DNA of 22,697 nucleotides, from positions 1-22,697 of the IMG/VR virus record IMGVR_UViG_3300025138_000400; one strand, written 5' to 3'. Made by a program: the position numbers and the translations under genes. Below the pieces are notes generated by a model. It had not been told where the DNA came from. It was given only the letters and a program-made list of their open reading frames with translations, and did not search any database. Shown in pieces: positions 852-17,036 of this stretch. This DNA is from a virus. Position 1 is the first letter of the stretch. Each line of letters opens with the position of its first letter.

Positions 852-867
852 CAGATATACTGCCTGT

Positions 868-948
868 GGGGTACAAGTCTCCCAGTACCCCCGGCGGGTT
901 GAGCGAGTTCCTCTCCGCTCCCCGCCGTTATTATTTGGGAGAGGGAGA
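868..948 (+). ncRNA. structured GC-rich intergenic RNA: tandem hairpins, possible terminator or SD-masking leader
   Basis: Hairpin 1: GGGGTAC (868-874) pairs with GTACCCC (885-891), with a 10-base loop. Hairpin 2 abuts it: CGGCGGG (892-898) pairs with CCCGCCG (921-927), then GAGCG (901-905) with CGCTC (916-920), with a 10-base loop. TTATTATTT follows (928-936), so hairpin 2 looks like an intrinsic terminator. Both loops are also complementary to the ribosome binding site of the gene at 953: TCTCCC (878-883) to either GGGAGA (937-942 or 943-948), and CCTCTC (910-915) to GAGAGG (939-944). The pairings are read directly from the sequence; the regulatory roles are inference. Confidence 0.55.
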
Positions 949-952
949 TTAT

Positions 953-1201
953 ATGTCAGATAACATAATAGAATTTCCTAATAGCAGGATGATTACTGAT
1001 GAGGACGCTCTAGATCCAAACGAAATGCTCCAAAACATCTGCGAGGATGTGGAGATGATCGAGGCTCTGGTTGTTGGTTGGACAAAAGAGGGTAAGCTAT
1101 TTATGGGAACATCTCACGGAAAAGCTCCTGACATGGTGTTTCTTTTAGAACTTGCGAAGTCAGTATTGTTAAACAAATGCGTAGGAGATGATGATGTTTA
1201 A
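953..1201 (+). CDS. small conserved phage protein, unknown function
   Basis: An 82-residue acidic protein. I chose the ATG at 953 because GGGAG lies five bases upstream and because the open frame extending further left crosses the structured RNA and the preceding gene. The C-terminal half (residues 35-76) reads like a small alpha/beta domain: a hydrophobic strand (EALVVGW), a turn (TKEGKLF), then SHG and a helix (VFLLELAKSVLL). I remember short phage proteins with this pattern, an N-terminal IxxFP followed by a VVxGWxxxG strand, next to terminase genes, without known function. Its expression may depend on the RNA fold at 868-948. Confidence 0.65.
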   Translation: MSDNIIEFPNSRMITDEDALDPNEMLQNICEDVEMIEALVVGWTKEGKLFMGTSHGKAPDMVFLLELAKSVLLNKCVGDDDV

Positions 1202-9120: not shown

Positions 9121-9148
9121 GGGCGGCTTCTTGGCCGCCCTTTCTTTT
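9121..9148 (+). terminator. intrinsic terminator after the major capsid gene
   Basis: GGGCGGC (9121-9127) pairs perfectly with GCCGCCC (9134-9140) across a six-base loop and is followed by TTTCTTTT (9141-9148). It lies 27 bases after the capsid stop codon with no gene inside. This is a canonical Rho-independent terminator for rightward transcription. Confidence 0.92.
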
Positions 9149-9156: not shown

Positions 9157-9170
9157 AGACGAAACCCTGA

Positions 9171-9200
9171 CAGCCGCATCCTGTGGCTGACACTAGCCAC
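9171..9200 (+). promoter_or_regulatory. mutually exclusive hairpins in the 5' leader of the 9217 gene
   Basis: CAGCC (9171-9175) can pair with GGCTG (9185-9189). Alternatively GTGGCT (9183-9188) pairs with AGCCAC (9195-9200) across a six-base loop. The two hairpins share the middle segment and exclude each other. The second ends four bases before the AGGAG ribosome binding site (9204-9208). It may be an RNA stability or translation-tuning element; the stems are short, so this is tentative. Confidence 0.3.
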
Positions 9201-9216
9201 GACAGGAGTGACTCAA

Positions 9217-9843
9217 ATGGCTACTACTACTTTTACTGGAGCGGTACGCTCCAAAGGCGGATTTACCTCTGTAAGCCAAAACGCTACAACAGGTGCATTC
9301 TCCACTCTTTCAAGCATCAGCTCAACTGGTGTATCTTCCTTTGATGCGAACACAATGGCTGTAGAGGCTGGCACTGGTATTACTACTGGTACTGGAACGA
9401 TTTATCGTACTTCTGTGCAGCGTGTGGGCGGCATCATTACAACTCGTATTCTTATTGACCTAACTGGTCTGCGTTCAACAGGATCTGGTGACATCATTGG
9501 TGTCAACGGTACAGCACTTGTTTGTCACATTGGTCAGATTACTGCTGTTAAAAACGGCACCATCTTGACTGGAAGCATGGAGTGTTTTGAAGCACCTACT
9601 GGCGGTGATCCAGACATTAACATCCACTCTGCAACAGAAGGCACAGGTGTTGAGGACGGAGCAATCGGTAGCTTGACTGAAACGCTTCTTGTCAATGCTG
9701 GTGACGCTACACTAGGAAGTAAAGTTTACTTTACTGCCGTCCCCGCTGCCGATCAGTTTTTGTATCTAACAACAGGCGCAGCTACAGACGCTGATTACTC
9801 TGCTGGCAAACTCTTTATTGAATTGATGGGCTACGAAGCCTAA
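9217..9843 (+). CDS. virion structural protein (head-associated or fibre candidate)
   Basis: A 208-residue protein, rich in Thr, Gly, Ser and Ala. I chose ATG 9217 over the upstream in-frame start at 9115 because AGGAG lies eight bases before it and the upstream extension would read through the terminator stem. The sequence begins ATTTFTGAVRSKGGFTSVSQ, which resembles the start of head-fibre or decoration proteins (FTGxVRSxxGF). A beta-rich domain follows with TIYRTSVQRVGGIITT, ILIDLTGLRS, HIGQITAVKNGTIL and IHSATEGTGVEDG. I remember this block from marine phage virion proteins after the capsid gene. Its own promoter and terminator suggest expression separate from the capsid gene. Confidence 0.75.
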   Translation: MATTTFTGAVRSKGGFTSVSQNATTGAFSTLSSISSTGVSSFDANTMAVEAGTGITTGTGTIYRTSVQRVGGIITTRILIDLTGLRSTGSGDIIGVNGTALVCHIGQITAVKNGTILTGSMECFEAPTGGDPDINIHSATEGTGVEDGAIGSLTETLLVNAGDATLGSKVYFTAVPAADQFLYLTTGAATDADYSAGKLFIELMGYEA

Positions 9844-9847
9844 TAAT

Positions 9848-9875
9848 GAGAGGGGTTAATCCCCCTCTCCTTTTT
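9848..9875 (+). terminator. intrinsic terminator after the 9217 gene
   Basis: GAGAGGGG (9848-9855) pairs perfectly with CCCCTCTC (9862-9869) across the six-base loop TTAATC and is followed by CTTTTT (9870-9875). It begins five bases after the stop codon. The next gene starts at 9890 with AAGGAG at 9878-9883, so read-through is needed, or a promoter I cannot see, for expression of the downstream genes. Confidence 0.85.
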
Positions 9876-12399: not shown

Positions 12400-13145
12400 C
12401 TATGAAGCGCGGCGGTAAGGCCACTGTAAAAAATCCAGTGGCTAAAGCTGTAGGGGGCATAAAGCCTAGCGTTGTAAAGCCAAAGAAGGGAAAGGGGTCT
12501 TACACGAGGAAGATCTCTTCCTTTAGTTCTGGGGGTGCTGCAAAGGTTCGGTCTGCTGGCAAAGAATACATGGCTAGTATCAGGGCTAAAGCTCCAGCAA
12601 CTGGAGTAAAGGCCAAGGCAAGGCAAAAGGCCGCAAAAGAAAAGATTGAGAAAGATTTAAATAAGGCCCGCAAGGGCTTTGCCACCCCAGCCAGACAAGC
12701 AGAAATGAAGTCAGGTGGGAGCGTAAAGAAAAAGATTAATAAGGTTGTTAAGGGTCTGAAGAAGGCATCTAAATTACACGCTGGTCAGGCAAAGACATTA
12801 TCTTCTCTTAAGCTAAGAGAGGGCGGATCTACAACAAAAAGAAAGCCAAAGATAAAAACCCCAAAAGGCACAAAGGGATTTAAGGGAATACAGCCCCTGA
12901 GACGCACTACCTTGAGGGCAAGTAGATATGAGTCTGGTGGTGATGTTGAGCCAATGAAAAAGGGCGGCAAAACAAAGTCTACCGTTAATAAGGCTGGTAA
13001 TTATACAAAGCCATCAATGCGTAAACAAATATTTAATAGAATTAAAGCTGGCGGTAAAGGCGGCGCTCCGGGTCAGTGGAGTGCGCGTAAGGCTCAAATG
13101 GTAGCCTCTGCCTACAAGAAAGCTGGTGGAGGATATAGAGACTAA
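12369..13145 (+). CDS. large Lys/Gly-rich basic protein with C-terminal GQWSARK domain
   Basis: A 258-residue protein. AAGGAG lies seven bases before ATG 12369, so I prefer it to the upstream TTG. It is extremely Lys-rich and punctuated by GG motifs followed by basic residues: KRGGKA, KSGGSVKKK, REGGSTTKRK, ESGGDVEP, KKGGKTK. The C-terminal ~45 residues (KPSMRKQIFNRIKAGGKGGA, PGQWSARKAQMVASAYKKAG) form a recognisable unit that I recall from phage and giant-virus proteins, possibly DUF5872; this is from memory. A DNA-binding or internal capsid role is inferred from charge. The stop overlaps the oxygenase start (TAATG), so the two are translated in series. Confidence 0.68.
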   Translation: MRKCGAKKPVAMKRGGKATVKNPVAKAVGGIKPSVVKPKKGKGSYTRKISSFSSGGAAKVRSAGKEYMASIRAKAPATGVKAKARQKAAKEKIEKDLNKARKGFATPARQAEMKSGGSVKKKINKVVKGLKKASKLHAGQAKTLSSLKLREGGSTTKRKPKIKTPKGTKGFKGIQPLRRTTLRASRYESGGDVEPMKKGGKTKSTVNKAGNYTKPSMRKQIFNRIKAGGKGGAPGQWSARKAQMVASAYKKAGGGYRD

Positions 13146-15896: not shown

Positions 15897-17036
15897 ATGC
15901 CTATTAGAATTAAAAAACTCGGTCAAAAGGGTGGCCCAAAGGGTCAGGACAAAACAATACCTCTTCCAAAAAAGAAGCCTCGTTTAGCCAACCCTAGGCA
16001 TCCAATGAATGCAGAGAAGACCAAACGTATGGCTAGTGGCGGCATGAGCAGGTCTCAAAAAAGCGCTAGAATTGAAAAATTGTTATCACAGATGCAATCA
16101 ATACCTAATGATAAATACACCCCTAAAAGCGATTCAATAAAACTTTTAAAGATAGAATCAGAAATAGATAAACTTGTAGGTAAAAAAACGGGCGGAGTTA
16201 TGAAAAAGGCTGCTGGTGGCAAACTTAAAATGGTAGAGAAGGGTGGAAAGAAAGTCCCATTCTTTGCCGCAGACGGAAAAGGAAAAATGGCTATGGGCGG
16301 TATGATGAAGAAAAAAGGTATGGCTAAAGGTGGCATGATGAAGAAGGGCTACGCCAAAGGTGGGCCTGTAACGGTAAGATCAGGAGATACCTTGTCTCAG
16401 ATCGCCAAGTCAAAGGGGCTTACCCTTGCCTCCTTAATGGCTGCTAATCCCGGTATTAAAAACGCTAATCAAATTCGTGTTGGACAAAGCATTAAGATGC
16501 CAACAGGTGGCGCTAAATCAAGAGCGCAGGGTATAGCAAAAAAGAAGGGTGTGTACGGCGATACTAGCAAGCCAGTAATGAGTGCGTTGGCTCGTGACAC
16601 TGCGGCAAGAAAAGCAGCCAAAGCTGGAAAGCCAGTCTCTAAAGCAAAAACCGTTAAAGACCCAAAGATTGCAAGAAAAATAGCTACGACAGCAACCAAA
16701 TTAAGCAATCTTGGGCAAGTGAATAAAAACCGAAGGGCGGATGATGCTGCTGCTAAGCCAAAAGCCTCTACTAAAAAAACATTAGCAAACACACCTAAGT
16801 CAGGTGCTGCTAAGGTTGCTGAAACTCGTATGGCTAGGTTGGCTAACAAAAACAAATTAGCCCGTAGAGCGGGCGGCGGTATGATGAAGAAAAAAGGTAT
16901 GGCTAAGGGCGGTATGATGAAGAAAAAAGGCTATGCTATGGGTGGAATGATGAAGAAAAAGGGTATGGCTAAAGGTGGTGTAATGCGTGGTACTGGCGCA
17001 GCCACAAAAGGTAAACGCTTTGGACGCGCAGGCTAG
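15897..17036 (+). CDS. basic LysM-domain protein with GGMMKKKG repeats
   Basis: A 379-residue, very basic protein with GGAGG upstream. A LysM module covers about residues 157-202 (GPVTVRSGDTLSQIAKSKGL, then TLASLMAANPG and RVGQSIKMP); LysM binds N-acetylglucosamine-containing cell wall. On both sides lie Gly-Met-Lys repeats, MGGMMKKKGMAKGGMMKKGY (133-152) and a longer run at the C-terminus (GGGMMKKKGMAKGG, MMKKKGYAMGG, MMKKKGMAKGGV). The rest is Lys/Ala-rich and disordered. The gene lies between two adaptor-type genes. LysM plus cationic repeats suggests a virion protein that binds peptidoglycan during entry; there is no visible hydrolase. Function is inference. Confidence 0.75.
   Translation: MPIRIKKLGQKGGPKGQDKTIPLPKKKPRLANPRHPMNAEKTKRMASGGMSRSQKSARIEKLLSQMQSIPNDKYTPKSDSIKLLKIESEIDKLVGKKTGGVMKKAAGGKLKMVEKGGKKVPFFAADGKGKMAMGGMMKKKGMAKGGMMKKGYAKGGPVTVRSGDTLSQIAKSKGLTLASLMAANPGIKNANQIRVGQSIKMPTGGAKSRAQGIAKKKGVYGDTSKPVMSALARDTAARKAAKAGKPVSKAKTVKDPKIARKIATTATKLSNLGQVNKNRRADDAAAKPKASTKKTLANTPKSGAAKVAETRMARLANKNKLARRAGGGMMKKKGMAKGGMMKKKGYAMGGMMKKKGMAKGGVMRGTGAATKGKRFGRAG
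16296..16327 (+). repeat. 32-base direct repeat, copy 1
   Basis: Exact 32-base copy of 16875-16906, inside the LysM-protein gene. It encodes GGMMKKKGMA. The identity at the DNA level, including all third positions, points to recent duplication or gene conversion within the gene. Confidence 0.85.
16875..16906 (+). repeat. 32-base direct repeat, copy 2
   Basis: Second exact copy of the 32 bases at 16296-16327. It is followed by imperfect further copies (to about 16980) that encode MMKKKGYA and MMKKKGMA, so the 3' end of the gene is a short tandem array. Confidence 0.85.

Follow-up and report, generated by a model that had tools for sequence, protein, structure and literature searches.

The put antitermination RNA of phage HK022 comprises two adjacent hairpins near the transcript start. 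Stem-loops at the 5' end can also act as message stabilisers, as for ompA and papA, and we know of no requirement for a fixed loop sequence in stabilisers of this type. A pseudoknot has been described in the gene 32 mRNA of phages T4, T2 and RB69, where it is located 67 nt 5' of the start codon and nucleates gp32 binding on an unstructured stretch; passages of the same source describe the T4 pseudoknot, as of 2010, as possibly the only viral case in translational autoregulation (PMC3014915). Fixed loops on changing stems are found in the alpha-r14 (NfeR1) and cuckoo/CcsR sRNAs, which, in the sections of PMC10746234 consulted, present C-rich anti-Shine-Dalgarno loops on stems of varying sequence. 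In addition, excerpts from PMC2864571 describe manA, wcaG and PhotoRC-II as structured RNAs that come mostly from marine metagenomes and phages.

The locus described here lies in a 22.7 kb virus record (the window, meaning the whole stretch of DNA that was analysed) at positions 868–948, upstream of the ATG at 953 (Table 1). Our preferred reading, to which we assign a probability of roughly 0.45, is that it would be a new pseudoknot-capable 5' leader of the terminase (late) operon in uncultivated podovirus-like phages, controlling translation and/or message stability. If this is true, the element would define a new family of structured RNAs in a group of marine phages and would stand among the few phage leader pseudoknots that have been proposed. 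Its location at the head of the packaging operon would also offer a direct handle on the timing or stabilisation of late messages in these phages.

Table 1. Parts of the element and neighbouring features in the window
Feature	Position	Strand	Basis or remark
-10-like hexamer TATACT	856..861	+	6 nt before hairpin 1; TAnnnT in 29/29 distinct upstream sequences
Predicted transcription start, first G of hairpin 1	868..868	+	Predicted from the -10-like hexamer
Hairpin 1, GGGGTAC / AAGTCTCCCA / GTACCCC; perfect 7-bp stem, 10-nt loop	868..891	+	Sequence and relatives
Loop heptamer GTCTCCC, invariant	877..883	+	34/34 alignment rows
Hairpin 2, CGGCGGG-TT-GAGCG / AGTTCCTCTC / CGCTC-CCCGCCG; 7+5 bp, 2-nt TT bulge, variable loop	892..927	+	Sequence and alignment
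Linker TTATTATTT (mostly TCATTATNTT in relatives)	928..936	+	Base counts in 38 copies
Purine tract GGGAGAGGGAGA, GGGAGA twice	937..948	+	Direct reading of the sequence
First GGGAGA, proposed partner of loop 1	937..942	+	GGGAG ≤20 nt after hairpin 2 in 33/38 copies
Second GGGAGA, likely Shine-Dalgarno sequence of the gene at 953	943..948	+	GGAG ends 5 nt 5' of ATG 953
First downstream gene, 82 aa, phrog_11040, product without assigned function	953..1201	+	ORF and phrog assignment

Two abutting hairpins and their relatives

The initial annotation described two abutting perfect hairpins. They do abut, with no spacer between them in the sequence, and hairpin 1 is perfect, whereas the stem of hairpin 2 is broken by a 2-nt bulge. 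The region 852–960 folds with a z score of -3.3 (0/200 shuffles equally stable), and the hairpin pair is the best-scoring abutting pair in the window, by a narrow margin on a simple score (40 vs 37 for the next). No family in Rfam 15 matches the element at the gathering score. With E values of up to 10 admitted over 700–1200, there are three matches, all at chance level, and RsmY is the sole one that overlaps the element (9.7 bits vs a gathering score of 57). A coding role for the element was rejected: read in the frame of the downstream start, the element is free of stop codons in only 10 of 37 copies, a count made with the start corrected for L098 and with L024 left out. The product of the gene at 953 yielded a poor AlphaFold2 model (pLDDT 65.5), and this model matched no PDB fold at E ≤ 0.001.

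How widely is the element shared? With the protein encoded at 953 as the query, 37 viral loci were retrieved, and 36 of them carry a homologous element; the lone exception (L036) is on a contig with ~200 bases upstream of the gene. These loci, together with those from pattern scans, make up a set of at least 38 distinct elements in which hairpin 1 is complete, from which L069 (truncated by a contig end) is excluded. The pattern scans include the loop and are therefore no test of its invariance; the protein-fetched set does test it. The copies are related, so that copy counts exceed the number of independent events, and the switch counts on the gene tree are minimum values.

Hairpin 1 is paired at 7/7 positions in all 38 distinct copies. 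In a 34-row alignment, six of its seven pairs are altered on both sides and yet pairing is 100%, with at least 17 switches needed on the tree of the neighbouring gene. The outer stem of hairpin 2 is likewise 100% paired, with double changes at two of eight pairs in the same alignment and at least three switches, in two outer pairs, on that tree. In six of the 34 rows (the window included), the inner stem of hairpin 2 is misaligned and was scored as unpaired. For the structure as a whole, 97.2% of cells are paired across the 34 distinct aligned sequences vs 89.1% in shuffles, and eight pairs have changes on both sides. The covariation score is 0.304, compared with 0.141 for shuffles (0/500 as high) and at most 0.092 for slid structures. 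A scan for the loop, linker and GGGAG that left the stem unspecified returned 78 stretches, including 31 loci not already in the set. The 27 unrelated loci among these form 3–6 of the seven hairpin-1 pairs, and the four true loci (L221, on the same contig as L010; L225; L233; and L240) form all seven. The comparative evidence is decisive: because 36 of 37 loci carry the element and the stems covary strongly, the two hairpins are, on sequence comparison, a real and conserved RNA structure.

A covariance model finds a single strong copy in 17/17 records of one set and 49/50 of another (66/67 in total); weak extra matches (E > 0.1) in three records are antisense or due to chance. A multi-copy or mobile repeat was rejected, given one strong match per record in 66/67 records. 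A stricter pattern, run over bacterial and archaeal genome contigs, gave six matches, of which four are chance and two are the element (L162 and L166, the latter copy cut at a contig end). The contigs of L162 and L166 are binned to Akkermansiaceae and Gammaproteobacteria metagenome-assembled genomes, and they are probably mis-binned phage contigs. The contigs that carry homologues come from related, uncultivated phages, and in them the element sits upstream of the terminase genes. Comparison of terminase, portal and capsid gives HTVC023P, HTVC027P, 023Pt_psg01, DSL-LC04 and MinM2/Pag-Yong1 as the nearest named phages; judged by protein, the carrier phages are akin to HTVC023P-type podoviruses. 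No copy is indicated in the closest cultured relatives: across the terminase region plus 2.5 kb flanks of HTVC027P, 023Pt_psg01, DSL-LC04, HTVC023P and MinM2, the covariance model gave only matches with E > 1, and a blastn search with the element gave zero matches in 50,697 phage records. Within the terms tried, no report of the element was found in the open-access literature, and the words noncoding, promoter, hairpin, terminator, leader and regulatory RNA are all absent from the main text of a pelagiphage paper (PMC9599517). The element is a real RNA leader family that lacks an Rfam entry.

Promoter-like sequence and operon position

A TAnnnT hexamer ends 5–7 nt before hairpin 1 in 29/29 distinct upstream sequences, against a background in which non-overlapping three-base windows reach at most 11/29. 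A second motif, CTRGYK, starts 35–37 nt upstream of hairpin 1 in 22/29; the seven upstream sequences without this -35-like motif include the window and its clade. In L016, L021, L032 and others, the -35-like box is CTAGTT or a close variant rather than TTGACA. The combined pattern CTAGT[TG]-N16-19-TAT[AT]NT occurs at the element in 6/9 records and only once elsewhere in all nine, and the -35-like box plus -10, being nearly unique per record, may be a late promoter specific to the phage. Hairpin 1 opens with a G in 38/38 copies. Because the -10-like hexamer lies 5–7 nt upstream in every case, transcription probably begins with the opening base of hairpin 1, a start predicted from the -10-like hexamers by themselves (29/29). 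A start at this position would make the element a 5' leader, not the terminator of an upstream gene.

What surrounds the element differs between lineages. In the window clade, which has no -35-like motif, there is a small co-directional ORF upstream of the element. In the examples read from other lineages, the nearest sizeable upstream ORFs (called mechanically) are ~100–140 nt away and on the opposite strand. Downstream, the leader is kept at the operon head also where another gene (~74 aa) comes first. In the window, the terminase (phrog_38), the portal (phrog_1216) and further ORFs are all on one strand, and the element looks like the head of the message for a phage packaging (terminase) operon.

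The AT-rich region at 541–590 in the window, like the region 100–200 nt upstream of the element in relatives, contains repeated palindromes (L016 and others have AGTACATATGTACT, for example), and a CTAGGAATCCTA-like motif recurs in several lineages. These could be operators of a divergent promoter. In 12/66 records (4.3 expected), a contig end falls within the 500 nt upstream of the element, an excess that may perhaps stem from the AT-rich repeats or from population variation. A genome end or packaging site was considered as well and rejected: the upstream sequence is AT-rich and repetitive, many loci were selected for their downstream side, and the element is internal in records of 57–60 kb.

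Other features of the window are recorded here in their own right. A strong terminator-like hairpin lies at 9121–9140, just after the capsid gene, and downstream of it there is an Rfam match to Mu-gpT-DE RNA (9165–9219, E 1.1e-12). The ORF at 13145–14230 matches a ring-hydroxylating dioxygenase catalytic domain (PF00848, E 5e-08) and is a possible auxiliary metabolic gene. The ORF at 15897–17036 is rich in GGMMKKKGMAKGG-like repeats and adjoins a stretch that, by eye, resembles LysM.

Loop 1 and the doubled GGGAG

Complementarity between the loops and the purine tract, as claimed in the initial annotation, can be read directly in the window: TCTCCC (878–883) is complementary to GGGAGA at 937–942 or 943–948, and CCTCTC in loop 2 (910–915) is complementary to GAGAGG (939–944). 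The further claim, that a structured RNA could pair near the ribosome binding site, is supported for one loop and not for the other. The GTCTCCC of loop 1 is unvaried in 34/34 rows, also in copies that were fetched by protein without any loop pattern, and its partner is kept in 33/38 copies in a geometry that fits an H-type pseudoknot. The complementarity of loop 2, in contrast, is not conserved, with TTTTTC or TACTAG in some relatives.

A GGGAG is found ≤20 nt after hairpin 2 in the same 33 copies, at a spacing of 8–11 nt in 31, 14 nt in one and 4 nt in one. This first block reads GGGAGA in 26 copies, GGGAGT in five, GGGAGC in one and GGGAGG in one, and each of the 33 copies contains an additional GGGAG, GGGGG or GGGGAG. 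The distance from the end of the first GGGAG to the start codon is mostly 11–13 nt, and 17–19 nt in four copies in which the second block is better placed (distances from an automatic start finder, which misplaced the start in L098 and probably in L024). The first GGGAG is thus more distant from the start codon than binding sites usually are, and GGGAG 10–20 nt before a start is rare: it occurs at 12/627 ORFs from a crude ORF caller in nine records, and eight of the 12 are the leader. Given this distance and this rarity, the first GGGAG looks tied to the RNA element rather than to the start codon, and the second GGGAG-like block is likely the binding site.

Pairing between loop 1 and the first block could involve 6 bp in 27 copies and 5 bp in six, with no pairing available in five of the 38. 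Loop 1 is 10–11 nt long, and the spacing is that of an H-type fold (3–4 nt, 1 nt, and a hairpin plus linker), so that loop 1 can, from its sequence, pair with the first GGGAG as an H-type pseudoknot. The hairpins probably fold back onto sequence that adjoins the ribosome binding site. This differs from the masking of that site proposed initially. The pairing would mostly take up the first GGGAG and leave the second GGGAG-like block free. Indeed, simple masking is not the obvious reading, because the first block is far from the start codon and the second is left as the likely binding site. The loop-to-tract idea survives in modified form, with the first GGGAG as the target and not the likely binding site itself, and we regard the mechanism as a little short of an even bet.

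Several observations count against the pairing. Five copies (L007, L009, L172, L181 and L024), four of them in the sister clade of the window, lack the first GGGAG but retain the loop. Since the loop is kept there although the stem has changed within the clade, either loop 1 has a further role or the loss is recent. Compensating changes in relatives, anticipated by the initial annotation, are absent from stem 2 of the pseudoknot; with the loop invariant (34 rows) and the partner lost in 5/38 copies, such a test has nothing to work on. In many copies, including the window, the best nested fold opens hairpin 1 and pairs loop 1 with the tract. GGGAGA is also an ordinary binding site in the carrier genomes.

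Possible functions and comparison with known systems

What might the leader do? In the preferred reading, transcription would begin at, or within about one base of, the first G of hairpin 1, and hairpins 1 and 2 would form as the RNA emerges. The linker and the first GGGAG(A) would then appear, and this block would be captured by the exposed TCTCCC of loop 1. The resulting H-type pseudoknot would have a stem 1 of 7 bp, 3–4 nt, a stem 2 of 5–6 bp and one purine between the stems, with hairpin 2 plus the linker as its third loop. Its end would abut the second GGGAG-like block, which would stay free and is likely the ribosome binding site. At the first late gene, a pseudoknot in this position would govern the ease of ribosome loading, and it would also sequester the 5' end of a long message. 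A more specific version, which we offer as a tentative and rather doubtful extension, accounts for the doubling of GGGAG: the first copy would be captured by the loop while the adjacent second copy loads ribosomes, so that 5'-end protection and the translation start would act as a single unit for the operon as a whole, regardless of which gene comes first, and the loop would be kept for another function (bound by protein or in trans) where the first copy has been lost.

The element could instead be an attenuator or terminator, with hairpin 2 and the U-rich linker stopping a share of transcripts at ~930–936, setting operon output and freeing a short RNA. The stem of hairpin 2 is GC-rich, and five or six of the first 8 nt after it are T in 24/38 copies (six in the window); the silence of a terminator scanner at hairpin 2 says little, because the scanner requires an uninterrupted stem. 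However, the third base after hairpin 2 is A in 38/38 copies and the second is C in 35/38, in the middle of the zone where a U tract should peak, and hairpin 1, the invariant loop and the linked GGGAG would be left unexplained. The plain terminator that the initial annotation set against its own proposal is weakened in addition by the -10-like sequence before hairpin 1 in 29/29 and, in the examples read outside the window clade, by upstream ORFs that face the other way, leaving no co-directional upstream gene to terminate. We consider attenuation unlikely. The position of hairpin 1 also suits a simpler role, in which a stem at base +1 blocks 5'-end-dependent decay of the long late mRNA and no pseudoknot forms. 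A transcription start predicted at the opening base of hairpin 1, the retention of the leader whatever the first gene, and the dispensability of GGGAG in 5/38 copies are all consistent with protection by a stem, but a plain protective stem needs no invariant 7-nt loop, no invariant linker A and no GGGAG linked to hairpin 2, which makes stabilisation by itself distinctly unlikely.

Two abutting hairpins that head a long one-strand operon recall cis-acting antitermination of the put type, in which both hairpins would bind RNA polymerase and allow terminators in the long late operon to be passed. Strong terminator-like sites do lie inside the operon on the same strand, at 9121–9140 and 9848–9869. 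We nevertheless hold this to be improbable: there is no Rfam match, and the GGGAG design, which to our knowledge HK022 put RNA does not have, is unexplained. An alpha-r14/cuckoo-like antisense RNA, acting in trans through pairing of the C-rich loop 1 with GGGAGA(C) sites of other phage or host genes, would account for an invariant C-rich loop upon covarying stems and for its retention where the cis partner is lost (5/38). GGGAGAC occurs in the window at 522 (-), 18243 (+) and 18908 (+), each time just before a possible start, and an ORF-based script accepts two of these. In the larger relatives G003, G004, G005 and G010, however, GGGAGAC is at binding sites in 0/3, 0/2, 0/2 and 0/3 cases, and orthologous genes exchange GGGAGA for AGGAGA or TGGAGA, which implies that there is no conserved set of targets. 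A conserved trans regulon on GGGAGA or GGGAGAC was rejected on these grounds; loop 2 is variable as well, and we rate a trans antisense role as highly improbable. A pseudoknot-capable leader is the reading we prefer, and with covarying stems but a fixed loop and a fixed doubled GGGAG, the pairing could be tested with few mutants.

How does the leader compare with the systems described at the outset? Its likeness to HK022 put is a matter of layout, with no similarity found and no Rfam match. Unlike manA, wcaG and PhotoRC-II, as these appear in the excerpts from PMC2864571, the element matches no Rfam family, and its context is the terminase operon. It resembles alpha-r14 and cuckoo, in the sections consulted (PMC10746234), in having several hairpins with a fixed C-rich loop motif and varying stems. 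Those RNAs act in trans and are described there as carrying CCUCCUCCC in every loop, whereas CCUCCUCCC is not the motif of each loop here: every row has GUCUCCC in loop 1, loop 2 is variable and a possible partner lies in cis. Like the 5'-terminal stem-loop stabilisers of ompA and papA, which appear in the references of PMC3997798, the element is predicted to have a stem at or close to the 5' terminus of the message; unlike them, it has an invariant loop that is followed by a GGGAG partner. The gene 32 operator has a protein partner, gp32, and the present leader is known from sequence. As in the gene 32 mRNAs of T4, T2 and RB69 (passages of PMC3014915), a pseudoknot would lie upstream of the ribosome binding site in a phage mRNA leader. 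In contrast to the gene 32 mRNA, the pseudoknot predicted here would lie directly against the binding site, take in a second hairpin and start with the very first base of the RNA.
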